Shown here: in pieces, positions 18-57,964 of the stretch | Position numbering within the stretch: the first letter of the stretch is position 1 | How the letters are laid out: every line of letters starts with the position of its first letter | Assembly: GCA_947176895.1 (NCBI GenBank) | Contig: CAMWSK010000001.1 | Span: 1-64,000 of the forward strand | Length of the DNA: 64,000 bases | Source: an uncultured Prevotellaceae bacterium | GTDB lineage: Bacteria > Bacteroidota > Bacteroidia > Bacteroidales > Bacteroidaceae | Direction: 5' to 3' | Notes under the pieces: generated by a model | What the model was told of the DNA's origin: nothing | Databases searched by the model: none | What the model saw: only the letters and a program-made list of their open reading frames with translations | Program-made: the position numbers and the translations under genes

Positions 18-98
18 AAACATCCTCATGTTTCCCCAAAAACATCCTCATGTTTCCCCAAAAACATCCTCATGTTTTCAAAAAACATGAACATGAAT
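18..98. repeat. Palindromic repeat array A (AAACAT-CCTC-ATGTTT)
   Basis: Three perfect copies of a 16-bp palindrome with 6-bp arms AAACAT/ATGTTT and central tetramer CCTC lie at 18-33, 40-55 and 62-77, spaced exactly 22 bp. A degenerate fourth copy with centre GAAC is at 83-98. The array may extend beyond the left edge of the window. It lies about 250 bp upstream of sppA. It belongs to the same family as arrays B to G in this window. Confidence 0.85.
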
Positions 99-344
99 CT
101 CCAAACACCTCAAAACACCAACACAACCACGGCAAATTCAATCGCAACACATAAAAAGAAACGCCGCAGAGAACAGGGAAAAGCGCCGCGATGTTTCAGC
201 CTAAAATGTCCGAAAGCATCGTTCCAAGCGCTCTATCACCACAAATTAACGCTTAAATTGAGTGTTACGAAGCACAAAATTTGCTCATCTCGCAAAAAAT
301 GTCGATAATTGTAGGCAATAACTATAAATATTGAACGCGCGTAC
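99..344. other. Non-coding region upstream of sppA
   Basis: No convincing gene is seen here. The stretch is A-rich and includes GCATCGTTCC at 216-225, a 10-mer that recurs beside array B at 5269-5278. A reading frame from 72 to 308 runs through the repeat array and has low-complexity composition, so it is not called. No clear TAnnTTTG box is visible before sppA; a weak TTG at 309-311 followed by TAAATATTG at 325-333 is the best candidate. Confidence 0.5.
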
Positions 345-2120
345 ATGAAAAAGTTTTTTAAGACCGCCTTGGCGGTGTTTGTCGGAGCCTTGCTCTCCGT
401 TGTAGTACTCTTCTTTCTGGGTATCTCTCTCATTGCCGGCCTGGCCGCAGGAAAGAGCGGTTCCGAACCGATAAAAGACAACAGCGTATTGGTGATTTCC
501 CTGAATGGAAATATCGAAGAACGCAGTGATGCGGCAGGCGATGCCCTGAGCATGCTCTCGGGAAAGAAGAACGTCAGCCTGGACGTTTTGGTGCAATCCA
601 TCAAAGAAGCAAAGACGAATAAAAACATCAAAGGCATTTATCTGGAAGGAGGATGCCCCACGACGGAACCGGCCTCCCTGCAAGAGTTACGCATGGCTTT
701 GTTGGACTTTAAGGAGAGCGGCAAATGGATATACAGCCACGCCGACAATTACACCGGTGGAGGCTACTATGTATGTAGCGTGGCCGACGAGCTGACACTC
801 AACCCCATCGGAGCCGTTGACTGGCATGGTCTGGCCTCGGAACCTATCTTCTTTAAAGACGCATTGGACAAGATTGGCGTAAAGGTGCAGGTATTCAAGG
901 TGGGTACCTACAAGAGTGCCGTGGAACCTTTCATAGGTACGGAGATGAGCGAAGCCAACCGCGAGCAGGTGACCGCCTATCTGGGCAGCATCTGGGGTAC
1001 CATGTTGAGCGAAGTGGCTCTTTCGCGCGAGATGAACGAGGAAAAATTGAATGCCCTGGCCGACAGCTTCCCCGCCATGCACCCCACCGAAAAGGCTTTG
1101 GAATGGGGATTGGTGGACGAACTGGCCTACACCGACCAAGCCAAAGAGAAGTTGAAGAAGAGACTGAAACTCGCTCCCAACGACAAATTGAACACGGTAA
1201 CACCCAAACAAGTGGTGGACAACATCGTCACGAAAGAAAAGAGTGAGAAGAAAGTGGCCGTGTACTATGCCTGGGGAGACATCGTGGACTCGCCCTCAGA
1301 CAACCTGCTGATGGGCGGAGGCCACAGCATCGTGGGCCATGTGGTGGCCAACGACCTGAGGAAACTGCGTGAAGACTCGGACGTGAAGGCCGTGGTGCTT
1401 CGTGTGAACTCCGGCGGTGGCAGTGTGTTTGCCAGCGAAGAAATATGGCGCGAAATGGAACTGCTGAAGAAAGAGAAGAGTGTGGTGGTAAGTATGGGTG
1501 GCATGGCGGCATCAGGCGGCTACTATATCTCCTGCCCGGCCAACAAAATCTATGCACAACCCACCACGCTGACCGGAAGTATCGGTGTGTTTGGCATGAT
1601 TCCCGACGCGAGCGACCTGGTGACCAACAAACTGGGACTGAAATTCGATGTGGTGAAAACCAACGAACTGAGCGACTTCGGTACGAAGAGCCGTCCCTTC
1701 AACGAACAAGAATGCCGGTTGATTCAGGCCAACGTGGAAAACACCTACGACCAATTTATCAAGCGTGTGAGCGACGGTCGCGGCCTTCCGGCCGACAGTG
1801 TCCGTCAAATAGCCGAAGGACGCGTATGGACGGGCGAACAGGCACTCCGCCTGGGCCTTGTGGATGAGTTGGGAAGCCTGGACGATGCCATTGCCGAGGC
1901 CGCCCAACTGGCCAAGCTCGACAAATATAATGTTAAGAACTACCCCGAATCCAAGAGCATGATAGAACAACTGCTTGAGGGAGATGTCACGGACAACTAC
2001 CTCAACAACAAGTTCCGCGAGACCATGGGCGACGCTTACGAGGTGGTGAGTCTGGCCAACAGCCTGGGAAGACAAGATCGCGTGCAAGCCCGTATCCCCT
2101 TCATGCCCAACATCCGATAA
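345..2120 (+). CDS. sppA: Signal peptide peptidase SppA, 67 kDa type
   Basis: This is a membrane-anchored serine protease of family S49 that degrades cleaved signal peptides. The 591-residue protein has the double-domain length of the E. coli 67K form. An N-terminal membrane helix spans about residues 7-30. The general-base lysine is in GTYKSAVEPF (Lys190) and the nucleophile in GGMAASGGYY (Ser390), the expected Lys/Ser dyad split between the two tandem domains. Residues 309-420 carry the conserved C-terminal S49 core. The next gene, lpxK, starts 18 bases downstream on the same strand, so the two are probably co-transcribed. Confidence 0.96.
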   Translation: MKKFFKTALAVFVGALLSVVVLFFLGISLIAGLAAGKSGSEPIKDNSVLVISLNGNIEERSDAAGDALSMLSGKKNVSLDVLVQSIKEAKTNKNIKGIYLEGGCPTTEPASLQELRMALLDFKESGKWIYSHADNYTGGGYYVCSVADELTLNPIGAVDWHGLASEPIFFKDALDKIGVKVQVFKVGTYKSAVEPFIGTEMSEANREQVTAYLGSIWGTMLSEVALSREMNEEKLNALADSFPAMHPTEKALEWGLVDELAYTDQAKEKLKKRLKLAPNDKLNTVTPKQVVDNIVTKEKSEKKVAVYYAWGDIVDSPSDNLLMGGGHSIVGHVVANDLRKLREDSDVKAVVLRVNSGGGSVFASEEIWREMELLKKEKSVVVSMGGMAASGGYYISCPANKIYAQPTTLTGSIGVFGMIPDASDLVTNKLGLKFDVVKTNELSDFGTKSRPFNEQECRLIQANVENTYDQFIKRVSDGRGLPADSVRQIAEGRVWTGEQALRLGLVDELGSLDDAIAEAAQLAKLDKYNVKNYPESKSMIEQLLEGDVTDNYLNNKFRETMGDAYEVVSLANSLGRQDRVQARIPFMPNIR

Positions 2121-2138
2121 AAGAGACCTTGCCCTGCC

Positions 2139-3308
2139 ATGAAGAATGACACGACGGACCTGAAGATAAGAAGATGGCTGCTACCGCTGAGCTGGCTCTA
2201 CGGGCTGGGAGTGACATTGCGCAACAAGCTGTTCGACATGGATGTGCTTCACACCCAGCGTTTCCCTATCCCCGTCATCTCCGTGGGTAACCTCACCGTG
2301 GGAGGAACAGGCAAGACGCCACACGTGGAGTATCTCGTCCGCCTGCTCAGCCCGCACTACAAGGTGGCCGTGCTGAGCAGGGGCTACAAGCGTAAATCAA
2401 AGGGTTATGTGCTGGCAACGTCCGACACTCCCATGCATGAGATTGGCGACGAGCCATGGCAGATTAAACAGAAATTTCCGGACATTTACGTGGCCGTGGA
2501 CAAGGTGCGCACACACGGCATCACACGCTTGATGAACGATGAAGAGACCAAAGACGTGGAGGTGGTGTTGCTGGATGACGCCTATCAGCACCGCTACGTG
2601 ACCCCGACGGCCAACATCCTGCTGGTGGACTGCCACCGCATGATTCCCTACGACAAGCTGTTGCCGGCCGGTTCACTGCGCGAACCGAAAGAGAGCATGG
2701 GACGCGCCAATATCGTCATCGTGACGAAATGCCCCCAAGACATCAAGCCCTTGGACTTCCGCGTGGCACAGAAACTGCTGAGGTTGCGCCCCTATCAAAA
2801 GCTATATTTCAGCACGATGCGCTACAAGACCATGCATCAACTCTTTGGCGAAGAGGAGAAAGCCATCGGTGATTTGCGTGAAAACGTCAACGTGATGTTG
2901 CTCACCGGCATCGCCTCGCCGGGACAAATGCAGGAAGACCTGGAGCAATACACAAAGCACATCACGCCCCTTTCCTTTCCCGACCATCACTACTTCACGG
3001 CAGATGATGCGGAACTTATCAACCGAACCTTCTCCCAACAGCCTCACCCGAGGCTGATTATCACCACGGAGAAAGATGCCACACGCCTGAGCGAATTAGG
3101 CAATCTGAGCGAAGAGGTAAGGCAAAGTCTCTTCGTCCTGCCCATAGAAATAAACATTCTGAGAGACGAACAAGAAAACTTTAACGAAAAAATCAAAGGT
3201 TATGTACTCAAAAATTCAAGAAACAGCGTCTTGGCTGCAAACCAAAATGAGCGCAAAGCCCACCACGGCCATCATCTTAGGAACCGGTCTGGGCAAATTG
3301 GCCGATGA
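2139..3308 (+). CDS. lpxK: Tetraacyldisaccharide 4'-kinase LpxK
   Basis: LpxK phosphorylates the 4' position of the lipid A disaccharide precursor at the inner membrane. The P-loop GGTGKT is at residues 55-60, preceded by the family segment VISVGNL. DDAYQHR and LLPAGSLREP are further conserved LpxK motifs. The 389-residue length is slightly long for the family because the last 35 codons overlap punA in another frame (3202-3308). Homology appears to fade near KNSRNS, so the final residues may be an unselected tail. The gene follows sppA closely. Confidence 0.95.
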   Translation: MKNDTTDLKIRRWLLPLSWLYGLGVTLRNKLFDMDVLHTQRFPIPVISVGNLTVGGTGKTPHVEYLVRLLSPHYKVAVLSRGYKRKSKGYVLATSDTPMHEIGDEPWQIKQKFPDIYVAVDKVRTHGITRLMNDEETKDVEVVLLDDAYQHRYVTPTANILLVDCHRMIPYDKLLPAGSLREPKESMGRANIVIVTKCPQDIKPLDFRVAQKLLRLRPYQKLYFSTMRYKTMHQLFGEEEKAIGDLRENVNVMLLTGIASPGQMQEDLEQYTKHITPLSFPDHHYFTADDAELINRTFSQQPHPRLIITTEKDATRLSELGNLSEEVRQSLFVLPIEINILRDEQENFNEKIKGYVLKNSRNSVLAANQNERKAHHGHHLRNRSGQIGR

Positions 3309-4014
3309 GATAGAGGTAACACAAGCCATACCTTATAGTGAAATCCCCAACTTCCCTGTGAGCACCGTAGAGGGCCACTCGGGCCGCCTCATCCTGGGAA
3401 AGCTGGGCGGGAAGGACATCATGGCCATGCAGGGCCGCTTCCATTACTATGAAGGCTACTCGATGAAGGAGGTCACCTTCCCCGTACGCGTGATGTATGA
3501 ACTGGGCATCCGCACACTCTTCGTAAGCAATGCGGCGGGTGGCACCAACCCCGATTTCCACATCGGCACGCTGATGATCATCACCGACCACATCAACTTC
3601 TTCCCCGAGAACCCTTTGCGCGGCAAGAACCTACCCACGGGGCCCCGCTTCCCCGACATGCACGAGCCTTATGACCTGCAGCTGGTGGCTCTGGCCGACC
3701 GGATTGCCGCAGAAAAGGGCATAGAGGTGGCCCATGGCGTGTACCTCGGCACCCAAGGCCCCACATTCGAGACTCCCGCCGAATATCGCATGTTCCACCG
3801 CATGGGAGCCGATGCAGTGGGCATGTCCACCGTACCCGAAGTGATTGTTGCCCGTCATTGCGGCATCCGCGTGTTCGGAGTGAGCATCATCACCGACCTG
3901 GGCATCGAGGGTCAGGTAGAGGAGGTGAGCCATGAGGAGGTGCAGAAGGCGGCCAATGCCGTGCAGCCCCTGATGGCCGACATCATGCGCGAGATGATCA
4001 AACGCAGCGAATAA
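3202..4014 (+). CDS. punA: Purine nucleoside phosphorylase
   Basis: This trimeric-type purine nucleoside phosphorylase cleaves guanosine, inosine or deoxy forms with phosphate to release the base for salvage. The 270-residue protein shows GTGLGKL near the N terminus, GRFHYYEGYSMKEVTFPVRVM, SNAAGGTNP, TQGPTFETPAEYRM and VGMSTVPEVIVARH, which form the phosphate, purine and ribose sites of the family. The start at 3202 lies inside lpxK, giving a 107-base out-of-frame overlap. A later ATG at 3247 would still overlap by 62 bases. A stem-loop terminator follows the stop. Confidence 0.95.
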   Translation: MYSKIQETASWLQTKMSAKPTTAIILGTGLGKLADEIEVTQAIPYSEIPNFPVSTVEGHSGRLILGKLGGKDIMAMQGRFHYYEGYSMKEVTFPVRVMYELGIRTLFVSNAAGGTNPDFHIGTLMIITDHINFFPENPLRGKNLPTGPRFPDMHEPYDLQLVALADRIAAEKGIEVAHGVYLGTQGPTFETPAEYRMFHRMGADAVGMSTVPEVIVARHCGIRVFGVSIITDLGIEGQVEEVSHEEVQKAANAVQPLMADIMREMIKRSE

Positions 4015-4033
4015 CATAACGCATATATTATAT

Positions 4034-4060
4034 GGAACGCGCGTGTACGCGCGTTCCTCT
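4034..4060 (+). terminator. Rho-independent terminator after punA
   Basis: A perfect 10-bp GC-rich stem (4034-4043 paired with 4048-4057) with loop TGTA is followed by TCTTTTATT. It sits 20 bases after the punA stop and before thiL. Confidence 0.8.
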
Positions 4061-4099
4061 TTTATTGAAGCACCACAACTTTTTCAACGAGACAGCACA

Positions 4100-5158
4100 A
4101 TGGAAATAGCATCCTTGGGTGAGTTCGGGCTGATAGACCATCTCACCTCCGGCATCACGCCCCAAAACGCAAGCACCCGGAAAGGCGTGGGCGATGATTG
4201 CGCAGTGATAGAATATGAGGCAGGAAAGCAAACCCTCGTCACCACCGACCTGCTGATGGAGGGCGTCCACTTCGACCTGATCTACACGCCCCTCAAGCAT
4301 TTGGGCTACAAGGCCGTGATGGTGAACCTGAGCGACGTGTACGCCATGGGCGGCACACCCCGGCAGATTACCGTGAGCCTGGCCATCAGCAAACGCTTCA
4401 GCGTGGAAGACATCGAAGTGCTGTACGGCGGCATGCGACTGGCCTGCGAGCAACACGGCGTGGACCTGGTGGGAGGCGACACCACCAGTTCGCTGACCGG
4501 ACTGTCCATCAGCATCACCGCCCTGGGCGAAGCACTGCCCGAGGACATCATCTACCGCAACGGAGCCAAGAAGACCGACCTCATCTGTGTGTCGGGCAAC
4601 CTGGGAGCGGCCTACATGGGGCTGCAACTGCTGGAGCGCGAGAAGGCCGTGTATTATCAGCAACGACGCGATGCCGGCGACAAAGCCAACGAGCTGCACT
4701 TCGAGCCCGACTTCACGGGGCACGAATATCTGCTGGAGCGGCAACTGAAGCCCGAAGCCCGCAAGGATATCATCGGGGAGCTTCACCGGACTGGCATCCG
4801 CCCCACAGCCATGATGGACATCAGCGACGGCCTGAGCAGCGAACTGGCGCACATCTGCACGCAAAGCCATACGGGCTGCCGCATCTACGAAGACCGCATC
4901 CCTCTCGACTATCAGACGGCATCCATGGCCGAAGAACTGAACATGAACGTCACCACCTGTGCCCTGAACGGCGGCGAGGACTACGAGTTGCTGTTCACCA
5001 TCCCCCTGAGCGACAGCGACCGCGTGCAGCAAATAAAGGACGTGCACGTCATCGGTTACATCACCGAAGAGAGTCAGGGACGCATGCTCATTGCCCGCGA
5101 CGGCGGTGAGTTTGAGCTGAAGGCACAGGGATGGAACCACATGAAGAAGGGGGAATAG
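4100..5158 (+). CDS. thiL: Thiamine-monophosphate kinase
   Basis: ThiL phosphorylates thiamine monophosphate to thiamine diphosphate with ATP. Motifs of the PurM-like fold are clear: GVGDDCAV near residue 30 and NLSDVYAMGG near 77 bind metal and nucleotide, GGDTTSS lies near 126, then MDISDGLS and NGGEDYELLFT. The frame stays open upstream to a GTG at 4043, but that segment runs through the punA terminator. The ATG at 4100, giving MEIASLGEFG and 352 residues, fits the family. No TPP riboswitch is evident upstream. Confidence 0.94.
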   Translation: MEIASLGEFGLIDHLTSGITPQNASTRKGVGDDCAVIEYEAGKQTLVTTDLLMEGVHFDLIYTPLKHLGYKAVMVNLSDVYAMGGTPRQITVSLAISKRFSVEDIEVLYGGMRLACEQHGVDLVGGDTTSSLTGLSISITALGEALPEDIIYRNGAKKTDLICVSGNLGAAYMGLQLLEREKAVYYQQRRDAGDKANELHFEPDFTGHEYLLERQLKPEARKDIIGELHRTGIRPTAMMDISDGLSSELAHICTQSHTGCRIYEDRIPLDYQTASMAEELNMNVTTCALNGGEDYELLFTIPLSDSDRVQQIKDVHVIGYITEESQGRMLIARDGGEFELKAQGWNHMKKGE

Positions 5159-5201
5159 GGCACCTTCCACCCACCCTTTTTCTCAACACTCCGAACACAA
5201 G

Positions 5202-5268
5202 AAAAAAAACATCGCGATGAATAAAAAAAACATCGCGATGAATAAAAAAAACATCGCGATGTTTTTTT
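5202..5268. repeat. Palindromic repeat array B (centre CGCG), also a likely bidirectional terminator
   Basis: Three units spaced 21 bp carry AAACATCGCGATG at 5207, 5228 and 5249. The last is part of a perfect 24-bp palindrome (5245-5268) with seven A and seven T at its ends. The first two units end in AAT instead of TTT. The array lies between the convergent genes thiL and the HhH gene. Its A-tract/stem/T-tract shape could stop transcription from both sides. Confidence 0.85.
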
Positions 5269-5313
5269 GCATCGTTCCGGAGTCTCCGGGATAACCTCAA
5301 GAAGAGAGACGGA

Positions 5314-6237
5314 CTACTCGCTGAAATCGAGGTAAGGAAGCAGACGCTCCACATCGGAAGGACGGAAGCCGGGAAGGAGAAGCAGGTCGGACTCGCCATG
5401 AAGTGACCCTTCATTGCACCGATACTCCCACACGGACCGGGCCTGTTCCACGCTCATATAGGGATGTGACAGGAGGGCACGCCTGCTGATTTTATTGATG
5501 GAAAACTTGCGAAGAGGAAGTTGCGAGGCAGTCAGAAAGTCGAGAGCCTCGGCAGGGAAGCCCTTCACCTCGGCCACTTGTTCCACACCGGCGAAACCGC
5601 CCAGACGCTCACGATAACGCACAACCTGGGCGGCATAATATGAACCGATGCCGGGCACCTGCTTCAGCAGGGTGGTGTCTGCCGTATTAACGTCGATGGT
5701 CTGCCCCACACGCAACTTGGGCCGGCAAACGGCCACGGGCTGTGCGGCGGGCGGTGTTTCAACGGTGTTAAGCGGAGCGGCAGTCGTTCCGGATGATTTG
5801 GAAGGGTGCGGGCGTTCTATCGGCTCCATGGGCTGGAACTCAGGAGCAATGGTAATCATGGGAGCGAGACGATTCCACATGCCCCGGGTCATACCGGGCA
5901 CACGGCTGAAATCTTCGGGAAAACTGTAGACATAACCCATGGCACGATACTTGTATATGCCCCTGACCATGGCAGGCGTGAGTCCCAGACGCAGAAGTGT
6001 GGTGCTGTCGGCAGTGTTGGGATCAAAAGAAAAGGTTTCTACCCTACGTTCGGGCACGGCAAAAGGCTTCGCCGGCTTGCGGCCATAGGAGGTCTGCACA
6101 GGCATCGGCGCAACAGCCACGACTTGTTCCTCGGGATGATACCACAGCCATACAGCCACGGACGCCACCAACACCAGAGCCACGCCGACGGCAAGCATAC
6201 CGCGTTTTTCCGACTGGGAGAGGTAAATGCGTGACAT
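5314..6237 (-). CDS. Helix-hairpin-helix (ComEA-like) membrane-anchored protein
   Basis: The 307-residue protein has an N-terminal membrane helix at about residues 14-32 and then a proline-rich linker. Helix-hairpin-helix repeats of the ComEA type follow: FDPNTADSTTLLRLGL near residue 70, IDVNTADTTLLKQVPGIG near 180, and a third, weaker unit at the C terminus. Such domains bind double-stranded DNA without sequence specificity. In competent bacteria ComEA is a DNA receptor in the envelope. No other competence gene is adjacent, so a role in uptake is only inferred. It lies 11 bases downstream of the transporter pair on the same strand and may belong to that operon. Confidence 0.85.
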   Translation of the reverse strand: MSRIYLSQSEKRGMLAVGVALVLVASVAVWLWYHPEEQVVAVAPMPVQTSYGRKPAKPFAVPERRVETFSFDPNTADSTTLLRLGLTPAMVRGIYKYRAMGYVYSFPEDFSRVPGMTRGMWNRLAPMITIAPEFQPMEPIERPHPSKSSGTTAAPLNTVETPPAAQPVAVCRPKLRVGQTIDVNTADTTLLKQVPGIGSYYAAQVVRYRERLGGFAGVEQVAEVKGFPAEALDFLTASQLPLRKFSINKISRRALLSHPYMSVEQARSVWEYRCNEGSLHGESDLLLLPGFRPSDVERLLPYLDFSE

Positions 6238-6248
6238 TGAAAATCGTG

Positions 6249-7598: not shown

Positions 7599-7615
7599 GA
7601 ACCCGATGATTTTTA

Positions 7616-8974: not shown

Positions 8975-9006
8975 CGTAATGAAAGTATTTTATATGGATG
9001 CAGTTA

Positions 9007-9014
9007 CAAAGTTA
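9007..9014 (-). promoter_or_regulatory. Promoter -7 box for the NSS transporter operon
   Basis: TAACTTTG on the minus strand matches the Bacteroidota -7 consensus TAnnTTTG. It lies 32 bases before the start codon at 8974. No clear TTG is seen at the usual -33 distance. Confidence 0.65.
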
Positions 9015-9026
9015 ATGTATTTTCCT

Positions 9027-9034
9027 TAACTTTG
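9027..9034 (+). promoter_or_regulatory. Promoter -7 box for the VanZ-like gene
   Basis: TAACTTTG on the plus strand lies 32 bases before the ATG at 9067. It is 12 bases from the divergent minus-strand box at 9007-9014, so the two promoters must compete for or share the same DNA. Confidence 0.65.
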
Positions 9035-9066
9035 CATCATTAAAGCACATACATTCACGAATCAGC

Positions 9067-12858: not shown

Positions 12859-12881
12859 GGAGATACTTCTCACTTGTTATG

Positions 12882-12977: not shown

Positions 12978-13056
12978 AAACATGTTCATCTTTTTCAGAA
13001 ACATGTTCATGTTTTTAAAAAACATGTTGATGTTTTTTCGGAAACATGCAGTGATT
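12978..13056. repeat. Palindromic repeat array C (centres GTTC, GTTC, GTTG)
   Basis: Sites at 12978-12993 (one arm mismatch), 12999-13014 and 13020-13035 repeat every 21 bp. A degenerate copy begins at 13042. This is the only array of the family in a divergent intergenic region, about 90 bases upstream of the -7 box of each flanking operon. The rest of this 340-bp gap holds the two promoters and no gene. Confidence 0.82.
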
Positions 13057-13137: not shown

Positions 13138-13140
13138 TTC

Positions 13141-19969: not shown

Positions 19970-20009
19970 ATGTTTTGAGCAAGACATGTTGAGGTCTTGC
20001 TCAAAACAT
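19970..20009. terminator. Long hairpin after the dNTPase gene
   Basis: A perfect 16-bp inverted repeat (19970-19985 with 19994-20009) surrounds an 8-base loop. Its right arm merges into the first AAACAT of array D. It lies 22 bases after the stop codon and could end transcription, although no long T run follows directly. Confidence 0.55.
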
Positions 20010-20084
20010 GTTCATGTTTTTGAAAAACATGAACATGTTTTGATTGCTTCATCGCAATGTTTTTGTTGAAACATGCGGATGTTT
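20004..20084. repeat. Palindromic repeat array D (centres GTTC, GAAC, CGCA, GCGG)
   Basis: Full sites are at 20004-20019 (GTTC), 20025-20040 (GAAC) and 20069-20084 (GCGG). A degenerate unit CTTCAT-CGCA-ATGTTT is at 20047-20062. Spacing is 21, 22 and 22 bp. The stretch 20035-20063 matches 46964-46992 beside array F at 26 of 29 positions. The array lies between the convergent genes dgt and glsB. Confidence 0.83.
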
Positions 20085-37861: not shown

Positions 37862-37942
37862 AAACATGCTCATGTTTTTGGAAAACATGTAACACGTTTT
37901 AAAAAAACATCCGCATGTATTTCCCGAAACATCCACATGTAT
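37862..37942. repeat. Palindromic repeat array E (centres GCTC, GTAAC, CCGC, CCAC)
   Basis: Sites are at 37862-37877, 37883-37899 (centre lengthened to five bases and one arm ACGTTT), 37905-37920 and 37927-37942, spaced 21-22 bp. The right arms of the last two read ATGTAT. The array lies between the convergent genes ftsZ and recO, after the ftsZ terminator. Confidence 0.82.
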
Positions 37943-45845: not shown

Positions 45846-45874
45846 CATAGAATATTATATGGTCATTCAGACAC

Positions 45875-46693: not shown

Positions 46694-46707
46694 GATGCAC
46701 GGTTTCT

Positions 46708-46860: not shown

Positions 46861-46889
46861 ACCTGACGGTTTGCCGAACGCATCAAAAA

Positions 46890-46997
46890 AAACATGCTGA
46901 TGTTTTCCAAAAACATCAACATGTGTGGGGCAAAACATGAACACGTTTCTGAAAAACATCAACATGTTTTAATCGCTTCACCGCAATGTTTTGCGGT
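46890..46997. repeat. Palindromic repeat array F (centres GCTG, CAAC, GAAC, CAAC, CGCA)
   Basis: Sites are at 46890-46905, 46911-46926, 46933-46948 (arm ACGTTT), 46954-46969 and a degenerate unit at 46976-46991, spaced 21-22 bp. The end contains a 7-bp hairpin, ACCGCAA/TTGCGGT (46980-46997), that could terminate murI. The array sits exactly where the upstream part of the relic permease operon is missing. Confidence 0.83.
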
Positions 46998-47041
46998 AGT
47001 GTACTGAACCGATACCGAATATAAAAAAAGAGGGGTACGCG

Positions 47042-48401: not shown

Positions 48402-48403
48402 GG

Positions 48404-48928: not shown

Positions 48929-48971
48929 CTTACTTTATTTGTTGATTTATTGATTGTTTTTTCGATACAGA

Positions 48972-49487: not shown

Positions 49488-49507
49488 CTTCTTCTGATTT
49501 TTAATGA

Positions 49508-52147
49508 TTAAAACTCTTGGCCCAGCACGAAGTGGAACTGACTGCCACCATACTTGCTGCTACCATATACCTTGTCGAATCCATATGCCCAGTCTACACC
49601 AAGCAAGCCCACCATAGGCAGGAAGATACGGACACCCACACCGGCCGAACGCTTCATGTCGAAAGGATTGAACTTCTTGATGTTGTTCCACGCATTACCT
49701 GCCTCGGCAAAAGCCAAGCAATAGATGTTGGTGCTGCTGCCCAGCATCAGGGGATAGCGAAGCTCCACGGTCATGCGGTCGTAGGCATAACCCAGATAAC
49801 CGCCGGGCGTGAGCGAACCGTTGTCGTAACCGCGCAGGGCGACGGTCTCCGTGCCATAAGTCGAACTATAGCCGCTGGTGCCGTCACCACCCACCATGAA
49901 GGTCTCGAAGGGAGAACGCTTGTGGCTGTTGTAATGTCCCAAAAGACCAAACTCCAGTCGCGTCATCAGCACAAGGTTCTTCACACCTTTGGTGAGAGGC
50001 ACAAACACACGCCCACGGAACTTCCACTTGTGATACTCGATCCAGCGGTACTTGTCCTGCAGTTCCCTCTGGTAAGTGCTTGACTGCGGATTATTGGCCA
50101 GATTCTTGTAGTCCTTGCCGTCGAACAGGCTGTAAGGAGGTGTGATGCTGGCCGTGAGCGAGAACTCACTACCCTTTCGGGGATAGTAGGGATTGTCGGT
50201 GCTGCCTCGGGAGAATGCGAAATTGAGCGCAAGATTGTTGCACGAGCCGTTACTAACCATGAAATAGCTCCACTCCTTCAACATATAACGCGTGTAACTG
50301 AGATCGGCAGAGAACGTGAAGTAGTCATCGGGCCAACGCAGACGCTTACCCCATCCCAGGCTCGCTCCAAAGATTTTAATGAACTTGTCGGGGTCGTAGA
50401 AGTTTTCATAATAATTACCATAACTTGAGCCGTATCCGGGCAGATAGCTGTTGTAGTAGTTATTATAGTAAGCGGAATTGTAATAGTTTTCGCTAAGGTC
50501 GGTCTGCTTGCTATAGAAAGCGTTCACCGTGAGCGAATTGGGACGCTTTCCGCCGAACCAGGGGTTGTTGTACGACACACTGTAAGCCTGGTAGTATTGG
50601 CCGTTGGTCTGGCCCGATATGCTGAAGCTCTCTCCGTTGCCTTGCGGCATCACACCGCGACGCAGTCCGTTCTTGTTAAACAGGTTGGCGATGCTGAAGT
50701 TGGAGAAACGGAGACCGATCTTACCAATCACACCCGTCTGTCCATAGCCGAGCGAGAACTCTATCTGGTCGCTGCTCTTCGGCGTCAGTCCCCAGTTGAT
50801 GTCCACCGTGCCGTTGGAATAGTCGGGCTTCACTTCAGGATTCAGGCTCTCGGCATCGAAGTTTCCCATCGAGGCGATTTCGCGCACAGAGCGAATCAAT
50901 GCCTCGCGGTCGAAGAGGTCGCCGGGCTTGTTGCGCAACTCGCGGCGCACCACATGCTCATACACACGGTCGTTACCGAAGATGCGCACATGACTGATAT
51001 GTGCAGGCACTCCTTCGCTGATGCGCATCTCCAAATCCACGGAGTCGCCCACCACAGCCGTTTCCACGCGGTCAAGGTCATAGAACACGTAACCGTTATT
51101 ATAATAGAGGTTGCCCACGGCATCCTCATCGTTCGACAAACGGTCGTCGAGTTTCTTCAGGTTATACACATCACCCTTCTTCATGCGCAACTCATAGTTG
51201 AGCTGGTCGGTGGAATAAACGGTGTTGCCCACCCAGTTGATGTTACGGATATAGTAGCGCTGCCCTTCCTCCACATTTATATATACATCCACGCTCTTCT
51301 CGTTGTGGGGCACCACGCTGTCCGAGAGGATGACGGCATCGCGATAACCCAACTCGCCATACTTGGCTATCAGGTTTTCCTTGGCTTCCTTATATTTCGT
51401 GTCCACGAACTTCTTGGAATGGAACCAACTGCCGAGATGCCGCTTCTCATAGAGCTTCATTACATTTTTCTTCAGCAATCCCCCTTTGATTTTCTTCTCG
51501 GACAGGTTCTCGTTGCCGGTGATGTAGATATGGTTTACGGTCACCTTGCTCTTCTTGTCAATAAACACATCCACCAGAGCCTGACCGGGCTGAGCCGGGT
51601 CTTCGGTCTGCCGGATTACAATCTCGGCATTCTTGTATCCCTTTCCGTCAAAATATCTGGCCGCAAGTATCTTTGCCCTGTCGATGGTGTTGGGGGTAAG
51701 CTGGTTGCCCTTCACCAGTCCCAACTTTGACTCCAAATCCTCGCGCTCCCCCTTCTTCACGCCATGATAACGGATATCGCCGATTCGCGGGCGCTGGCTC
51801 AGTTGGATGTGAAGAAATGCCGAATCGTTGACAATGCTGTCCACACGAATCTGGACGCTTGAGAAGAGTCCGTGCTTCCAGTATCGGCGGATGGCTGCGG
51901 TGATTTCATCTCCGGGGATGGTAATCTTCTGCCCTTGCTGCAGGCCGCTGAGTCCCACCAACAGGAAGTCGTCGTAGCTGTTGGCACCGCTCACCGTGAT
52001 GCCGCCCAGGATATAGTCACGGGGAGAACGCGAATAATCGACCACAGGGTCTGTGTCGCGTTGGGTGAATTGCGCCGTGGCCTGTTGCAAGCACGCAACC
52101 AAGGCGGTCAGACAAAATAATATTCTCTTCACGAGGGATGTATTCAT
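49508..52147 (-). CDS. bamA: Outer-membrane protein assembly factor BamA
   Basis: BamA inserts beta-barrel proteins into the outer membrane. The 879-residue protein has a signal peptide (about residues 1-25), POTRA repeats over roughly 40-430 (for example GDIRYHGVKKGEREDLESKLGL and VNHIYITGNENLSEKKI) and a 16-strand barrel. The barrel includes the lid-loop-like stretch VFVPLTKGVKNLVLMTRLEFGLLG and the terminal FHFVLGQEF with an aromatic last residue. A Tyr/Asn-rich extracellular loop (YNSAYYNNYYNSY) is notable. The Skp genes follow. Confidence 0.97.
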   Translation of the reverse strand: MNTSLVKRILFCLTALVACLQQATAQFTQRDTDPVVDYSRSPRDYILGGITVSGANSYDDFLLVGLSGLQQGQKITIPGDEITAAIRRYWKHGLFSSVQIRVDSIVNDSAFLHIQLSQRPRIGDIRYHGVKKGEREDLESKLGLVKGNQLTPNTIDRAKILAARYFDGKGYKNAEIVIRQTEDPAQPGQALVDVFIDKKSKVTVNHIYITGNENLSEKKIKGGLLKKNVMKLYEKRHLGSWFHSKKFVDTKYKEAKENLIAKYGELGYRDAVILSDSVVPHNEKSVDVYINVEEGQRYYIRNINWVGNTVYSTDQLNYELRMKKGDVYNLKKLDDRLSNDEDAVGNLYYNNGYVFYDLDRVETAVVGDSVDLEMRISEGVPAHISHVRIFGNDRVYEHVVRRELRNKPGDLFDREALIRSVREIASMGNFDAESLNPEVKPDYSNGTVDINWGLTPKSSDQIEFSLGYGQTGVIGKIGLRFSNFSIANLFNKNGLRRGVMPQGNGESFSISGQTNGQYYQAYSVSYNNPWFGGKRPNSLTVNAFYSKQTDLSENYYNSAYYNNYYNSYLPGYGSSYGNYYENFYDPDKFIKIFGASLGWGKRLRWPDDYFTFSADLSYTRYMLKEWSYFMVSNGSCNNLALNFAFSRGSTDNPYYPRKGSEFSLTASITPPYSLFDGKDYKNLANNPQSSTYQRELQDKYRWIEYHKWKFRGRVFVPLTKGVKNLVLMTRLEFGLLGHYNSHKRSPFETFMVGGDGTSGYSSTYGTETVALRGYDNGSLTPGGYLGYAYDRMTVELRYPLMLGSSTNIYCLAFAEAGNAWNNIKKFNPFDMKRSAGVGVRIFLPMVGLLGVDWAYGFDKVYGSSKYGGSQFHFVLGQEF

Positions 52148-52170
52148 TGCTTGTGTGTCTGTGTTCGGTG

Positions 52171-52941
52171 TTAGTTCTGCTCAGCCTCTATCTGTTCACC
52201 GGTTTTTCCATATCTCCGCTGACGGTGCTGATAGTCCGCCACGGCCCGGCGCAAACATTCTTCGTTGAAGTCGGGCCAGAAAGTGTCTGAAAAATAGAAC
52301 TCGCTGTAGGCTGATTGCCAAAGCAGATAGTTGCTGATACGTTTCTCTCCACCTGTACGGATAAGCAGGTCGGGGTCAGGCATGAAGTTGGTGGCCAGGT
52401 GCCGGCTCACGGTCTCCTCCGTGATGTCGGCCATATCCAATGTCCCTTCTTTCACCTCCCGGGCTATCTGTCGGGCGGCCTCGGTCAGTTCCCAGCGGGC
52501 ACTGTAGCTCAGAGCCACAATCATGGTCATTTTCCGGTTGCCCCGGGTGCGTTCTTCCGTCTCACGAAGGCGCTGCTGCACACGCTCGGGCAACTTTTCA
52601 CGCTGTCCGATGACGCGGAAGCGCACATCGTTCTTCATGAAAATCTCCTCCTCCAGATGGTCAAGAATCAGCCCCATCAAGGCTTCGATCTCGGCTGCAG
52701 GACGGTTCCAGTTCTCCGTAGAAAAAGTGTAGAGAGTAAGATATTTGATACCCAGGCGGGTGGCTTCCGTGGTGATTTTCTTCACGGTCTCCACTCCTTC
52801 TGCATGCCCGTGCGTGCGGGGCAGCCCTTTGGCTTTGGCCCATCGACCGTTTCCGTCCATGATGATGGCCACATGCCGGGGCACCTTGTTGGGATCTATA
52901 GACATTTGTTCTGACATACTATGGTCTGTTTCTTTAGTCAT
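52171..52941 (-). CDS. uppS: Undecaprenyl diphosphate synthase
   Basis: UppS makes C55-PP, the lipid carrier precursor for peptidoglycan and O-antigen. [27 protein letters not shown] carries the catalytic Asp and the phosphate site. [59 protein letters not shown] are diagnostic of the cis-prenyltransferase family. The ATG at 52941 is chosen; an open frame extends 12 codons further. It overlaps the DUF6089 gene by 8 bases. Confidence 0.96.
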
Positions 52942-53680
52942 TGTTGTGACAGGTCTTGCATTTCGGGCTGATGTCATAGGTGAGCGTCAGCATCAGCAGG
53001 CTGTAGGCATCCTTGTTTTTGAAACCCTTTCCTTTTATGTTATAGGGATGGGCCAGCGTGGCTTGTCCTCCTGCATCCAGCTCGTCGGTGGTGGTCATGC
53101 GGAAAGACCATTCTGCCCCCACGTTCAATCTGGGCTTCAGCTTGTATTTCACTCCCAGTCCCACGGGGATGTTCAGGCCGAAGGCCGCACTTTCGCCGCC
53201 TCCCACGGCCAGCGTAAAACCCACACCTATGGCGACATAAGGCGTGAAGCGCCGCATGTTCATGTATTCCTTTCCCAGGCCGTAGCCGAAGAAGTTCAGT
53301 TCATATTGTGCGCCCAGATCAATGACTCCACGCTTGAAGTCCACGGCCACCGGCACCCCGCCCTCGGCTCCGGGTGTGGACGCATCGGCCGGAATGAACC
53401 GTTTTCCGCTTGCCCCCCGCAAGTGAGCCATCGCCAGATTGGCTTTCAGTCCCATGCGCGGGTTGAAGTTGCGGCGCCACAGCAGGGCAGCCGCCACACC
53501 GGGTTTGCGAAAAGGCGTGCTGCTCACGTCACCCAGATAGAAGTCAGTACCCAACCCGCCGCCTATCTCCATGCGATACTCCTCGTCATCCTGCGCAGCA
53601 AGACTTAAAGGAACAAACGCCAGAAGCATCAACAGCATCCGGCCGACATGGAACTTTCTTATGCGCGACAGGCTTTTCAT
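52934..53680 (-). CDS. DUF6089-type outer-membrane beta-barrel protein
   Basis: A 248-residue protein with a signal peptide (about residues 1-29, ending SLAAQ) and alternating hydrophobic strands rich in Gly and aromatic residues: [34 protein letters not shown] and [14 protein letters not shown]. It ends CKTCHNND, a CxxC close to the terminus. In this phylum the family lies beside uppS and bamA, as here, so an envelope role is likely, but its function is unknown. Confidence 0.82.
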
Positions 53681-53681
53681 C

Positions 53682-55079
53682 CTATCTCAAAAAGCCCAAG
53701 CGGTTGATACGTCCCTTCCACACGAAGTTGTCTACCACCACCCACACGAAGTTGTTGTCGTCCACCGCACACGTGATATAACCCGCTTCGGCGGCAACTT
53801 TCTGTATTTCGGGGTCTATGTTCATATCGCCTCCCGCATAAGGTTTCCATGTCACGCCATGGTCAGGTGACCGGAGAGGCTCGTCCATCGGTTTGTACGT
53901 ACCGTCGGACGAAGCTCCGCCCAAGGCAATGAAAGCGTCATCATAAGCCAGCACGTTCAGGTTTTTCAGAATGGGAAGACTATATTTGTCCGCTCCGTTG
54001 GGCGTATAGAACATCCAGCCCTCGGCAGCCTCCCCGCCCTTGTTCCAGGATTTGGCCCAGGTACGGGTCACCTCTGCGCCCTCTTCCGTGCTCTGCCCGA
54101 TGATCATCAGGCGTTCCTGTCCGTTGGGCAACGTGTAGTAGAGCCCTTGAAGCTCGCGCTGCGGCAGCATGGCGGGTTCGGCATCCAGGCTCTCCTGTTG
54201 CCATCCCTCGCCGGCATTGCTCCACAAGGCACCGTCCATCATGGCATACACCCGCTGTTCGCTGGCCGCCACCAATTGCAGCCCCTCGTGTGCGGGATAG
54301 CCGGTGTCCGACCAATCCACGCCGTTCGTGCTCTGCAGCACCCTACCATCTTCGGTGCTGACATATAACTTTTCGGATGTTTTCTGCAAGGTGGAGGGCA
54401 CAGCCTTTTGCACGCCCGTGGTGTTGAGCATCTGCCAATGCGCCTCCCCGGTCAGGGAGGTCTGCACGTTCACGGCCTCACCCCCGTCATTCAGAGCCAA
54501 CACCATCAGCCTGCCATCCCAACAAACAGCCTTGCGCCGGTTCATGACGCCAAGGTAGGGAACCACTCCCTTGTTGCTCCACTCGGTGGAATCGCCCTTT
54601 TGCCGATGCACGTTCACCTTCACCCGGTAGCGGCGGGAACTCTTCACATCGGGTGCCACCACCATAAACGTCAGCGGATGGGAAAAGTCGATAGAGTCAT
54701 TTTCGCTATAATTTGTCCATGCCGTATCGGCACCCTCCTCCAAATCGGCCCTGCGCCATCCTATCACGCCGGAGGCGGTCACACTGGCCAGCACGGCACC
54801 CACACGGCTGTGTACGGGCAGCGAATCCGGATTTTCGATGGTAAGCGTACGATGGTCGATGGTCATGGGGAAAAGACGTCCGTTGAACGAAGTGTAGTAA
54901 GAACTATCTTTTCCGTCGGCATCCTTCGCAAAACGCTGCTGCCGGACGGTGCCTAAAGAAAACGACGAGATGTAGCACTGATCACTGAGGACAACGCTTT
55001 CCTCGTCACTATTACACGATGAGAACATCAGCGGAAACACCGCCAAAAGAATCATCAGATAGGGGAACGTTTTTTTCAT
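53682..55079 (-). CDS. DUF6242-type lipoprotein with beta-propeller-like repeats
   Basis: A 465-residue lipoprotein with the lipobox FPLMFSSC. An N-terminal domain of about 130 residues (ISSFSLGTVRQQRF, YTSFNGRLFPMTID) is followed by repeats with WSNAGEGWQQE, STNGVDWSDTGYPA and SPDHGVTWKPYAGG, the Asp-box-like pattern of BNR/sialidase propellers. I place it in the DUF6242 family. The active-site residues of sialidases are not seen. It is the first gene of the run down to murI. Confidence 0.75.
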   Translation of the reverse strand: MKKTFPYLMILLAVFPLMFSSCNSDEESVVLSDQCYISSFSLGTVRQQRFAKDADGKDSSYYTSFNGRLFPMTIDHRTLTIENPDSLPVHSRVGAVLASVTASGVIGWRRADLEEGADTAWTNYSENDSIDFSHPLTFMVVAPDVKSSRRYRVKVNVHRQKGDSTEWSNKGVVPYLGVMNRRKAVCWDGRLMVLALNDGGEAVNVQTSLTGEAHWQMLNTTGVQKAVPSTLQKTSEKLYVSTEDGRVLQSTNGVDWSDTGYPAHEGLQLVAASEQRVYAMMDGALWSNAGEGWQQESLDAEPAMLPQRELQGLYYTLPNGQERLMIIGQSTEEGAEVTRTWAKSWNKGGEAAEGWMFYTPNGADKYSLPILKNLNVLAYDDAFIALGGASSDGTYKPMDEPLRSPDHGVTWKPYAGGDMNIDPEIQKVAAEAGYITCAVDDNNFVWVVVDNFVWKGRINRLGFLR

Positions 55080-55096
55080 TCTTGCGTATTTAGGCA

Positions 55097-55104
55097 CAAA
55101 AATA
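55097..55104 (-). promoter_or_regulatory. Promoter -7 box for the DUF6242-to-murI gene run
   Basis: TATTTTTG on the minus strand matches TAnnTTTG and lies 17 bases before the ATG at 55079. Confidence 0.5.
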
Positions 55105-55199
55105 CGTCAAATTGTTGGTTCAGCGAAGACAATTCCCATTTAATTAAAGTATTTTATTATAATTTCATGCACCGACACACCTGTACCGTTGTTTTCCTT

Positions 55200-56282
55200 T
55201 TACCCGCAACCCGGGCGAAGGATTTCCACCACGTGGCCGCCGATGTTTTCCCGGGCCACGACCACCGCCCCAAAAGGCAGCGCCGCTGCCACGCCGCCGC
55301 CCAGCCGGAGAGGGCTGTGTTCCACACGCATCTCATCCCACAACCGCTGCTCCAGAAAAGCCTGATGTATGGCGGGGCCTCCCTCCACCAACAGACTCTG
55401 CACTCCGACCTGCGCCAGATCGCTCAGAATGGTGTGCAGGGGCAGTGTGCCCGAAGTTTCCCGGGCGATGCGGCAGACAGTCGTTCCGGACAACCGCTCA
55501 TAGTCGGGACGGGCATCGGTGGCCGTGAGATAGACACGGGCAGGAAACAGACGCAGGTCGGCGGACAGGTTGCCGTGCGTGTCTATCACCACTCTTTGGG
55601 GCGAGCGTCCGGGCCACCGGCGTGTAGTGAGCGAAGGGTTGTCCAACAGAGCCGTCCGTCCGCCCACAAGAATGGCATCGGCACGGGAACGCAGACGGTG
55701 GACAAGCGCCAGGTTCGTGGCATCGCTAAGCTGCGCGGCAGCTCCATCGGCCAATGTGGAGCGTAAAAAATCAACCATTCCATCGGCGCTTTCTGCCCAT
55801 TTCAGCGTAACATAAGGGCGCTTCTTTTGATGGAAGGTGAAGAACTGTCGGTTGAGTTCCTGACACTCTTTTTCCAGCACGCCCACCGTCACCTCGACAC
55901 CGGCCTGCCGAAGCATGGAGATGCCCTTGCCATCAACCTTTTCAAACGAATCCCGGCAGCCCACCACCACACGCGGAATATGCTTTTCTACAATCAGCTT
56001 GGCACAGGGGGGCGTCTTGCCATAGTGGGCACAGGGCTCAAGGGTGACGTAGAGGGTGCTGCGCTCCAGCAATCCGGGCCGGCGCACCGAGGCAATGGCG
56101 TTTACCTCGGCATGGGGGCCTCCGCATTGGCGGTGGAAGCCTTCGCCCACGATTCGCCCATCGCACACCACCACAGCCCCTACCATGGGGTTGGGAGCCG
56201 CGTGTTCCCGACCGCAGGAGGCCAGCTGCAGGGCACGCCGCATATAGCACTCATCCATTTTTCTCTGTTCTTCTTTTGTCAT
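55200..56282 (-). CDS. ribD: Riboflavin biosynthesis deaminase/reductase
   Basis: A bifunctional enzyme whose N-terminal zinc deaminase domain and C-terminal reductase perform steps two and three of riboflavin synthesis. PNPMVGAVVV, HAEVNAI and EPCAHYGKTPPCAKLI supply the zinc ligands. KWAESADGMVD, ILVGGRTALLDNPSLTTR and LLVEGGPAIHQAFL belong to the reductase. The frame opens 12 codons upstream of the chosen ATG at 56282 (MTKEEQRKMDE). It is divergent from prmC, and their start codons are 28 bases apart. Confidence 0.94.
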   Translation of the reverse strand: MTKEEQRKMDECYMRRALQLASCGREHAAPNPMVGAVVVCDGRIVGEGFHRQCGGPHAEVNAIASVRRPGLLERSTLYVTLEPCAHYGKTPPCAKLIVEKHIPRVVVGCRDSFEKVDGKGISMLRQAGVEVTVGVLEKECQELNRQFFTFHQKKRPYVTLKWAESADGMVDFLRSTLADGAAAQLSDATNLALVHRLRSRADAILVGGRTALLDNPSLTTRRWPGRSPQRVVIDTHGNLSADLRLFPARVYLTATDARPDYERLSGTTVCRIARETSGTLPLHTILSDLAQVGVQSLLVEGGPAIHQAFLEQRLWDEMRVEHSPLRLGGGVAAALPFGAVVVARENIGGHVVEILRPGCG

Positions 56283-56306
56283 CTTTCTGCTTTTTTTGTA
56301 CGTTTG
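56275..56306 (+). promoter_or_regulatory. Promoter for prmC-recX
   Basis: TTTG (56275-56278) is followed after 20 bases by TACGTTTG (56299-56306), a perfect promoter. The prmC ATG follows only four bases later, and the -33 element lies within the 5' end of ribD. Confidence 0.82.
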
Positions 56307-56310
56307 CAGC

Positions 56311-57174
56311 ATGAACATCCTTCAAGACATTGCCCGCCGTCTGCAGGCCGTCTACCCGGCCGGCGAGGCACGGGCCGTAGCCCGCATCCTGATGGAGGAC
56401 GGCTTTCGGTTGTCGCAAACCGACATTCTTATGGGCAAAGATAACGAATTATCGGCAGAGCAACGCCTCTGTGTGGAAAAATGTGTGCGGCGTCTGCTGG
56501 CCGGAGAACCGGTGCAGTACGTCACGGGGCAATGCCTCTTCCTCGGCCGCCCGTTCTCGGTGCGCCCGGGATGCCTGATTCCCCGTCCCGAGACCGAGGA
56601 CCTGGTGGCGGCCATAGTCGAGAACGCCAAACGACGCATAGAGGCCGATGGACAAGAGCATCCGCTCCGCGTGCTGGACATCGGCACCGGTTCGGGCTGC
56701 ATAGCCGTTTCCCTGGCCTTGGAGCTGGGCGAAGCGGCCTGTGTCGAGGCGTGGGACGTCAGCCCCGAAGCACTGGAGATTGCCTGCGAAAACGCAAGAA
56801 AGCTCCATTCCACCGTCAGCTTCCGGCTGGCGGATATCCTAAAGACTCCCGATTCATCGGCATTATTTGATATTATCGTGAGCAATCCGCCCTATGTGCG
56901 TGAACAGGAAAAGGCCGACATGGAGGCCAACGTGCTGCAACACGAGCCACACCTGGCGCTCTTTGTTCCGGACAACGACCCTCTGCTGTTCTATCGAAGT
57001 ATCGGAAACCACGCCCTCCGCCACCTGGTTTCCGGCGGACAACTGTGGCTGGAGACCAACCGCCACCTCATCACCGATACCGCCGATTTACTGGAAAGTA
57101 TGGGTTTCTTACAGGTTGAGCCCCTCACCGACCGCTACGGACATCCGCGTCACCTGAAAGCCATCCGCCCATGA
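56311..57174 (+). CDS. prmC: Release factor glutamine N5-methyltransferase
   Basis: PrmC methylates the GGQ glutamine of RF1 and RF2. The 287-residue protein shows an N-terminal helical domain, PVQYVTGQCLFLGRPFSV, LIPRPETEDLV, the SAM loop VLDIGTGSGCIAVSLAL and the active-site NPPYV. It acts on the product of prfB, encoded at 9.9 kb. The ATG lies four bases after the promoter box, so its mRNA should be leaderless. The next in-frame Met is about 27 residues in. Its stop overlaps recX by four bases. Confidence 0.95.
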   Translation: MNILQDIARRLQAVYPAGEARAVARILMEDGFRLSQTDILMGKDNELSAEQRLCVEKCVRRLLAGEPVQYVTGQCLFLGRPFSVRPGCLIPRPETEDLVAAIVENAKRRIEADGQEHPLRVLDIGTGSGCIAVSLALELGEAACVEAWDVSPEALEIACENARKLHSTVSFRLADILKTPDSSALFDIIVSNPPYVREQEKADMEANVLQHEPHLALFVPDNDPLLFYRSIGNHALRHLVSGGQLWLETNRHLITDTADLLESMGFLQVEPLTDRYGHPRHLKAIRP

Positions 57175-57674
57175 ACTTCCCAAAACCTTCCAATCCATCG
57201 CCCACAGACGAGGCTAAAGCACTGAGCAAGGCCGCCGCCCTCTGCGTCAGACAAGAGATGTGTGTCAGTCAGATCCGGGCCAGGTTGGACCGATGGCTCG
57301 TCACTCCCGAGGCACAGGAACGCATCATCGGCCGCCTGCTGGCCGAACGTTTCATCGATGAAGCCCGCTTTGCCACAGCCTATGCCCGCGACAAGTTCCG
57401 CCACAACGGATGGGGTCCCATGCGCATCGACAGCCAACTGCGCCTGCTGCATATTGCCGACACCCACAGACGGGCGGCACTGGACGAGCTGCCCACAGAG
57501 GAACAGAGCGACACATTGGTCCGTCTGCTCGAAAAAAAAGCACAAAGCGTGAAAGGGAAAAACAACTACGAACGCCGCGGAAAACTGATTCGCTTTGCCC
57601 TCGGCCGGGGCTTTCAAATGGACGAAATCATGAAAAATCTGCCCGACGATATGGGCCAAGACGACGAGTGGTAA
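57171..57674 (+). CDS. recX: Regulatory protein RecX
   Basis: RecX modulates RecA. The 167-residue protein has the three-helix repeats of the family: KAAALCVRQEMCVSQIRARLDRW, RLLAERFIDEARFATAYARDKFRHNGWGPMRIDSQL, and RRGKLIRFALGRGFQMDEIMKNL. It is translationally coupled to prmC through an ATGA overlap. recO, another recombination gene, is at 38 kb. A repeat-rich gap follows. Confidence 0.93.
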   Translation: MNFPKPSNPSPTDEAKALSKAAALCVRQEMCVSQIRARLDRWLVTPEAQERIIGRLLAERFIDEARFATAYARDKFRHNGWGPMRIDSQLRLLHIADTHRRAALDELPTEEQSDTLVRLLEKKAQSVKGKNNYERRGKLIRFALGRGFQMDEIMKNLPDDMGQDDEW

Positions 57675-57705
57675 ACGGTTCTATCCGAGAACGCATTCAT
57701 TTTAC

Positions 57706-57739
57706 CTCGAACTTATTGACATCTCGAACTTATTGACAT
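57706..57739 (+). repeat. Tandem 17-bp direct repeat
   Basis: CTCGAACTTATTGACAT occurs twice back to back (57706-57722 and 57723-57739). It lies between recX and the inverted-repeat element that carries array G. The CGAACT core also occurs in the right arm of that element. Confidence 0.85.
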
Positions 57740-57751
57740 AAAGATTTTAGT

Positions 57752-57964
57752 TATAACGTGAGTTCGATGAATTTTTAAGGCCTGTAAAATTCGCCTCCTT
57801 CCAAGCCCCCGAAAAAACATCTTGATGTTTTATGAAAAACATGAACACGTTTTTCAAAAAGATGAACATGTTTTTTGAAAAAGATGAACATGTTTTTGAA
57901 GGCTCTGCAAACGGCATGAAACACACAGCTTGTCTTATTGGGATTTCATCGAACTCACGTTATA
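57752..57964. mobile_element. MITE-like 213-bp segment with perfect 20-bp inverted ends
   Basis: The 20 bases at 57752-57771 are the exact reverse complement of 57945-57964. The interior holds array G and a flank shared with array E. No gene fits inside. No target-site duplication is evident. It could be a non-autonomous mobile element or a long-range hairpin. The diverged end beside array E (38012-38035) suggests that copies move or spread. The rest of the 450-bp recX-tlpA gap holds the tandem repeat and a promoter. Confidence 0.6.
57815..57895. repeat. Palindromic repeat array G (centres CTTG, GAAC, GAAC, GAAC)
   Basis: Sites are at 57815-57830, 57837-57852 (arm ACGTTT), 57858-57873 and 57880-57895 (both with left arm AAAGAT), spaced 21-22 bp, inside the inverted-repeat segment. 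Confidence 0.82.

Follow-up and report, generated by a model that had tools for sequence, protein, structure and literature searches.

What does a bacterial chromosome do with a short palindrome that recurs, in small clusters, in the gaps between its genes? The question is raised by a 64,000-nucleotide stretch of DNA, here called the window (positions 1 to 64,000, forward strand, of contig CAMWSK010000001.1, assembly GCA_947176895.1), from an uncultured Prevotellaceae bacterium of the gut, in which the 16-bp palindrome AAACAT-SNNS-ATGTTT (AAACATNNNNATGTTT) occurs in seven clusters. A first account made from the letters only, the sequence-only reading, had described this family of sites, and our analysis confirms it as observed. 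Beyond that account, we find that sites within a cluster stand 21 or 22 bp apart, that the clusters are evenly placed, that the motif is nearly private to this genome, and that related genomes carry arrays of the same design built from other sequences. The findings touch on a long-open question, whether a bacterial chromosome is divided by domain boundaries that are set by sequence and regularly placed; here a single genome holds some 190-200 evenly spaced, intergenic, helically phased candidate platforms (extrapolated from 38 clusters in 464 kb).

The genome of the window (G000) is a 2.42-Mb assembly of 53 contigs and is about 88% complete. Our main sample comprised 464 kb of it, the window and 400 kb more (19% of the genome), with genes called by a simple codon-score caller whose start positions are approximate. 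At up to two mismatches, the window contains 26 matches to AAACATNNNNATGTTT, 13 of them exact, against a mean of 2.12 and a largest value of 7 in 100 dinucleotide shuffles. The seven intergenic clusters are real, since 24 of the 26 matches fall inside them. The other two matches (7679 and 42863, two mismatches each) lie within open reading frames, as would be expected by chance. Genome-wide there are 226 exact sites and none of a reversed control pattern. The sample holds 113 sites with at most one mismatch, forming 38 clusters; once a cluster at a contig start with no gene to its left is set aside, 36 of 37 are intergenic and one, a singleton, lies in a gene. The proposed preference for G or C at the ends of the core is likewise upheld (110 of 113 sites on the left, 111 of 113 on the right). 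An Rfam scan of the window reached the gathering score at two tRNAs only.

The internal anatomy of the clusters is strict. Neighbouring sites in the sample are separated by 21 bp (45 cases) or 22 bp (26 cases) and never by 20 or 23 bp, the remaining spacings below 120 bp being 42, 43, 44 and 76 bp, one each. Among the 35 multi-site clusters, 19 have three units, 10 have four and 6 have two. Each palindrome is made of two half-sites, AAACATS, and the ends of the core vary almost independently: G..C occurs at 63 of the 113 sites, G..G at 17, C..C at 16, C..G at 13 and other pairs at 4, with pairable ends slightly over-represented (chi-square about 6 by hand calculation, some sites being non-independent copies of a miniature inverted-repeat transposable element, MITE, described below). 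So exact a helical phase argues that double-stranded DNA is read on one face; near-independent half-sites, together with one dominant sequence in array-rich genomes, point to a specific dimeric protein, and three to four units to a defined complex. Two half-sites would form one palindrome bound by a dimer, and consecutive palindromes, two helical turns apart, would place dimers on the same face of the helix, where they could bind cooperatively. We regard it as an even call that the arrays are platforms for three to four dimers of one chromosome-wide, sequence-specific, fast-evolving DNA-binding protein; the protein, its cooperativity and its structural role are inferred from this anatomy.

The placement of the arrays along the chromosome is also regular. 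The 34 distances between clusters in the sample have a mean of 12.1 kb and a coefficient of variation (CV) of 0.42, with one distance below 5 kb (to the in-gene singleton), whereas random choice among intergenic gaps of at least 100 bp gave a CV of 0.86 and 9.8 distances below 5 kb; 0 of 10,000 draws were as extreme by either measure. With only the 35 multi-site clusters retained, the CV is 0.36 against 0.81 (0 of 3,000 draws). In three relatives the interval is 4.6-6.9 kb, compared with about 12 kb here, and in the relative G025 the CV is 0.41 against 0.57 (P 0.045; 14 arrays, one of them called in a gene). Dispersed, evenly placed intergenic sites, as would be looked for in a nucleoid-organising protein, are therefore found in G000 and more weakly in its relatives. 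The neighbours of the arrays are unrelated housekeeping genes, and the distance from array edge to called gene start is at least 58 bp, with a single exception at 16 bp. Thirty gene starts lie within 150 bp of an array, and by eye, most without a family search, they include no obvious regulator. Even spacing away from promoters argues for a chromosome-scale role rather than gene regulation. Located for the most part between transcription units, at intervals of about 12 kb in G000, the platforms would probably serve the chromosome as fixed anchors or domain boundaries.

The same gene context bears on the main rival explanation, that transcription ends or is blocked at the arrays, which would act either as weak hairpins in tandem or as protein roadblocks insulating neighbouring operons. 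Of 37 clusters, 13 lie in convergent, 15 in codirectional and 8 in divergent gaps and 1 in a gene; given the gaps of at least 40 bp that are available, convergent gaps are the richest in arrays (13/29, versus 15/121 codirectional and 8/37 divergent). Many arrays start with an A-run and finish with a T-run. Of 42 gene ends that face an array, a crude test found a hairpin-plus-T-run apart from the array at 7 and none at 35. A consensus scan flagged as terminator-like, on the minus strand, the array at 46.9 kb, one of two window arrays in the scanned stretch; this array 6 (46890..46969, no strand assigned) has four units 21-22 bp apart and lies between codirectional genes. Against this stand the 8 of 36 intergenic arrays between divergent genes and the even spacing. 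A single unit folds weakly as RNA (mean -2.7 kcal/mol), a terminator requires neither the uniform stem sequence seen within array-rich genomes nor DNA-helix phasing, and in some species an ordinary terminator appears, by eye, between thiL and the array (loci L050 and L067). The terminator family proposed by the sequence-only reading thus keeps the flagged array and the scarcity of separate terminators in its favour, and we consider a transcription boundary unlikely overall. Separately, a strong hairpin (CACCCCAAAAG...CTTTTGGGGTG), possibly a shared terminator, stands beside three convergent-gap arrays in G000 (contig C1 at about 100.4 and 154.2 kb, contig C3 at about 73.6 kb).

To place the arrays in a wider setting we compared 139 genomes of the genus, G000 included. 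To judge from titles, ruminant gut assemblies make up many of the related records. DNA-identical loci equate G020 with uncultured Prevotellaceae bacterium SRR12081299_bin.10, G032 with a Bacteroidaceae bacterium from dairy cattle caecum (RGIG211) and G006 with Prevotellaceae bacterium UBA1743; 8 of 30 compared members are named in this way. AAACATNNNNATGTTT is found 226 times in G000, 9 times in G023, 4 in G109, 3 in G029 and 0-2 times elsewhere, with any occurrence in 20 of 139 genomes. The motif of G025, CGCANCGTGNTGCG, has 495 + 484 = 979 sites in that genome and at most 13 elsewhere on both strands (any in 79 of 139). Absence from close relatives was to have counted as refutation in the sequence-only reading, and for AAACATNNNNATGTTT the absence is nearly complete; the architecture nevertheless recurs with other sequences, and the feature is therefore not spurious. 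In the intergenic DNA (216,761 bp) of 17 genomes, tandem self-matches number 30 at a period of 21 bp and 66 at 22 bp, against 0-5 at other periods from 14 to 40 bp; in genes there are 3 at 22 bp and 9 at 21 bp, the latter like other multiples of three.

In the stretches read, arrays occur in twelve of these 17 genomes (G000 plus 11 congeners), and G003, G004, G007, G010 and G031 have none in the 10-20 kb read of each. Among ten further genomes, eight have arrays (G005, G013, G014, G017, G024, G027, G062 and G136), G028 has none in 40 kb and G011 is doubtful. One array was seen in G020, beside thiL, and G023 showed none in an additional 60 kb. In all, 20 congeners share the architecture with mostly different sequences: GGTTAACC in G012 and G024, CCGCRYGCGG in G027, CCCTATAGGG in G005, AAGACGCGCGTCTT in G001, CACGTG in G036 and AACCAGTGACTGGTT in G017, while some AAACAT-type sites with other cores occur in G023, G029 and G036. 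When the consensus of the whole unit is tested, 48 of 90 arrays are more palindromic than the 95% shuffle level, so that full-unit palindromy is not universal. Over 138 arrays from 21 genomes, a common 9-mer links 628 of 816 array pairs within a genome (77%; 295 of 465 when G000 is excluded) and 657 of 8,637 pairs between genomes (8%), many of the latter from near species (89 of 108 for G000/G023, 92 of 140 for G012/G024). G023 is the nearest relative found, and its nine exact sites are on contigs C1, C13, C21, C28, C34, C64, C65 and C73; so small a number implies expansion in the window's species or decay in G023. In G036, an array with a 44-bp period downstream of thiL (L068, 2578-2714) alternates CACGTGG and CCCCCTAACCCCCTTTAGGGGG, two codes interleaved within a single array.

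Near-private sequence, hundreds of copies and even spacing are also what a mark of self DNA would show, in which arrays kept by molecular drive would tag the chromosome so that it is taken up, packaged or protected. The array patterns fit such a mark in a further respect, for the exact two-unit patterns of G000 and G025 have 0 matches in IMG/VR viral contigs. DNA uptake sequences are genome-wide, short, species-specific and reportedly evenly spaced, and they are non-palindromic (PMC1939737). The arrays resemble them and their dialects in all but the last of these properties, and differ in that uptake sites are single and without dyad symmetry, where ours are phased palindrome arrays. Positions are, moreover, partly kept across species, which counts against a self mark. 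We know of no tandem, phased uptake sites, and we judge this explanation improbable.

That positions are partly kept while sequence is replaced emerged when a 20-kb block of G012 was matched in six relatives. Between a sulfatase-domain gene and an ABC transporter gene, five of seven species carry an array, with the motifs GGTTAACC (twice), CACGTG, CCCTATAGGG and CCGCACGCGG; in G035 and G013 the gap there is below 60 bp and has no array. The 5' side of the arginyl-tRNA synthetase gene has an array in five of six readable species, although the neighbour gene on the other side varies. From 444 orthologous gene-end comparisons, made with the sister pair G012/G024 excluded, 249 were dropped for a gap below 60 bp (55 of these with an array on one side, none on both). 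In 132 gap pairs, arrays were present in both species 30 times, in one 47 times and in neither 55 times. Within-stretch permutation predicts 19.7 shared-array pairs against the 30 seen (P 0.0036); related species enter this figure repeatedly, and a gap is longer for the very presence of an array. Among the 27 genomes usable at thiL (3 of 30 dropped), 8 have an array downstream of the gene. A spacer, AATGACCAACGCC, is common to the units of G005 and G027 although their palindromic cores differ, a pattern that suggests the core was exchanged in situ.

Such positions also speak to the possibility that MITEs, or elements like repetitive extragenic palindromes (REP), carry the arrays or have left them behind, the mobile-repeat footprint of the sequence-only reading. 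When intergenic DNA was compared with the sites masked, a MITE of about 210 bp became apparent, with a 20-bp terminal inverted repeat (TIR), TAACGTGAGTTCGATGAA, and an array in its middle. The window copy (57752-57964, 213 bp) has its left TIR, TATAACGTGAGTTCGATGAA, at 57752..57771 on the plus strand and its right TIR at 57945..57964 on the minus strand, enclosing array 7 (57815..57895, no strand assigned; four units 21-22 bp apart); other copies in G000 lie on C1 at about 75.7, 123.7 and 162.6 kb and on C3 at about 60.5 kb. Both TIRs, about 190 bp apart, flank 5 of 38 clusters and a single end 4 more, making 9 of 38 with at least one; 14 of the sample's 15 TIR matches are no more than 400 bp from a cluster, and inner sequence outside the array is common to about six copies. 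Against this, 29 of 38 clusters have no TIR even at up to four mismatches, TIR-like matches in other species look like chance and enclose no array, and terminal inverted repeats are not a general property of the arrays, those of relatives showing none. Nor would insertion at random be expected to yield even spacing, or arrays of different sequence at orthologous positions. The MITE thus accounts for some of the dispersal in this species, but not for the remaining arrays or those of relatives; as a general explanation mobility is quite improbable.

REP sequences and the bacterial interspersed mosaic elements (BIME) that they form are intergenic palindromes in hundreds of copies, with some families species-specific (PMC3733652). 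The likeness to our arrays extends to this description. The arrays differ in having no GTAG-type tag, in consisting of fixed 21/22-bp direct tandem units rather than tagged single palindromes or head/tail pairs, in positions partly kept across species, and in that no gene for the associated transposase, RAYT, was found in array-rich genomes: PF01797 was found in 5 of 20 genomes (61-100% complete), and in none of G000, G012, G025 and G005.

Several known DNA-binding proteins were considered as binders. ArgR, which in E. coli binds tandem palindromes about 21 bp apart, is present in one copy in 20 of 20 genomes, with a recognition helix that reads QATLSRDL or QTTLSRDL in each of the 19 proteins recovered (the protein of G005 was not recovered). 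Lrp/AsnC proteins are octamers of four dimers; in the 30 of 47 matches inspected by eye, recognition helices are conserved within each paralogue. One clear ParB is present in 16 of 16 genomes, its helix conserved by eye while the motifs differ, and G017 has a second, sub-threshold match. HU/HU-HIG proteins give 2-19 matches per genome. The sites of Noc (NBS), SlmA, MatP (matS) and ParB (parS) are dispersed palindromes, tens per genome, whose sequence is kept across species. The arrays are like them as dispersed palindromic sites for a candidate chromosome-wide protein, and unlike them in comprising hundreds of sites, in phased arrays, with the sequence replaced between species. Stoperators of the mycobacteriophage L5 type are dispersed intergenic sites with a consensus that differs between groups; they are single asymmetric sites in phage genomes, in contrast to palindrome arrays in bacterial chromosomes.

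Of the roles first suggested, a nucleoid or segregation protein site survives best, in that a chromosome-wide protein-binding site fits the helical phasing, near-independent half-sites, even spacing and kept positions. The specificity of such a protein would shift fast and its units would then be rewritten genome-wide, with period, unit number and, in part, position retained. We tentatively propose, at somewhat less than even confidence, an addressing system of kept addresses and a replaceable code, in which a fast-evolving protein marks evenly spaced domain boundaries (or self) by arrays of three to four palindromes at intervals of two helical turns, and a shift in specificity leads a species to rewrite most of its arrays in place. 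A number of observations weigh against the reading of the arrays as binding platforms for such a protein. Array spacing in G012 is not significantly even (CV 0.50 versus 0.64, P 0.13), and that in G027 (CV 0.11 versus 0.51) comes from four arrays. No clear array is present in 7 of 26 congeners read over at least 9 kb. Sharing of 9-mers within a genome is low in G035 (5/28), G032 (3/10), G002 (1/3) and G013 (2/6), and G012, G021, G032, G035 and G136 have more than one motif. The gap test concerns one block, and G023 lacks array 3 of the window in the orthologous gap, which implies that arrays are both gained and lost. Finally, no binder was found, the conserved helices of ArgR, Lrp and ParB arguing against these three in a survey short of a proteome-wide screen.

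We know of no nameable kind that unites partly conserved positions, a fixed helical period and a site sequence differing between most species, and for this reason we rate the arrays as categorically new; should a known nucleoid protein with shifting specificity bind them, they would fall within a known kind. No title or abstract opening met in searches of the open-access literature describes such arrays, subscription papers being largely outside the search. The commonest intergenic tandem repeats are reported to be heptamers (PMC6344855). Replacement of the site code within one genus would offer a natural experiment on the joint change of a DNA-binding protein and hundreds of its sites, and on the pressure behind it.

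The other five arrays of the window, likewise without assigned strand, vary in detail. Array 1 (18..98) has four units 21-22 bp apart with the cores CCTC, CCTC, CCTC and GAAC, the last unit with two mismatches. Array 2 (5207..5264) consists of three CGCG-core units 21 bp apart between the convergent thiL and comEA-like genes. Array 3 (12978..13035), three units 21 bp apart, is flanked by divergent genes and has on its right side one MITE-like end with three mismatches. Array 4 (20004..20084) lies between convergent genes and has three recognisable units, 21 and 44 bp apart. Array 5 (37862..37942), between the convergent ftsZ and recO, counts three units at no more than one mismatch, separated by 43 and 22 bp, and its right flank is partially similar to the MITE.

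Two further kinds of repeat were seen. G000 has a second motif, CGCCGCGGCG, partly as 22-bp arrays (C1:128465-128518, C2:62842-62873, C2:77805 and C3:26522), and there are hybrid sites with this motif, composed of one CGCCGC half and one ATGTTT half. Relatives also contain intergenic arrays of another kind, with CTAG- or CTATAG-type hexamers every 9-10 bp (L037 1981-2071, L029 16910-16992 and L036 2468-2566).

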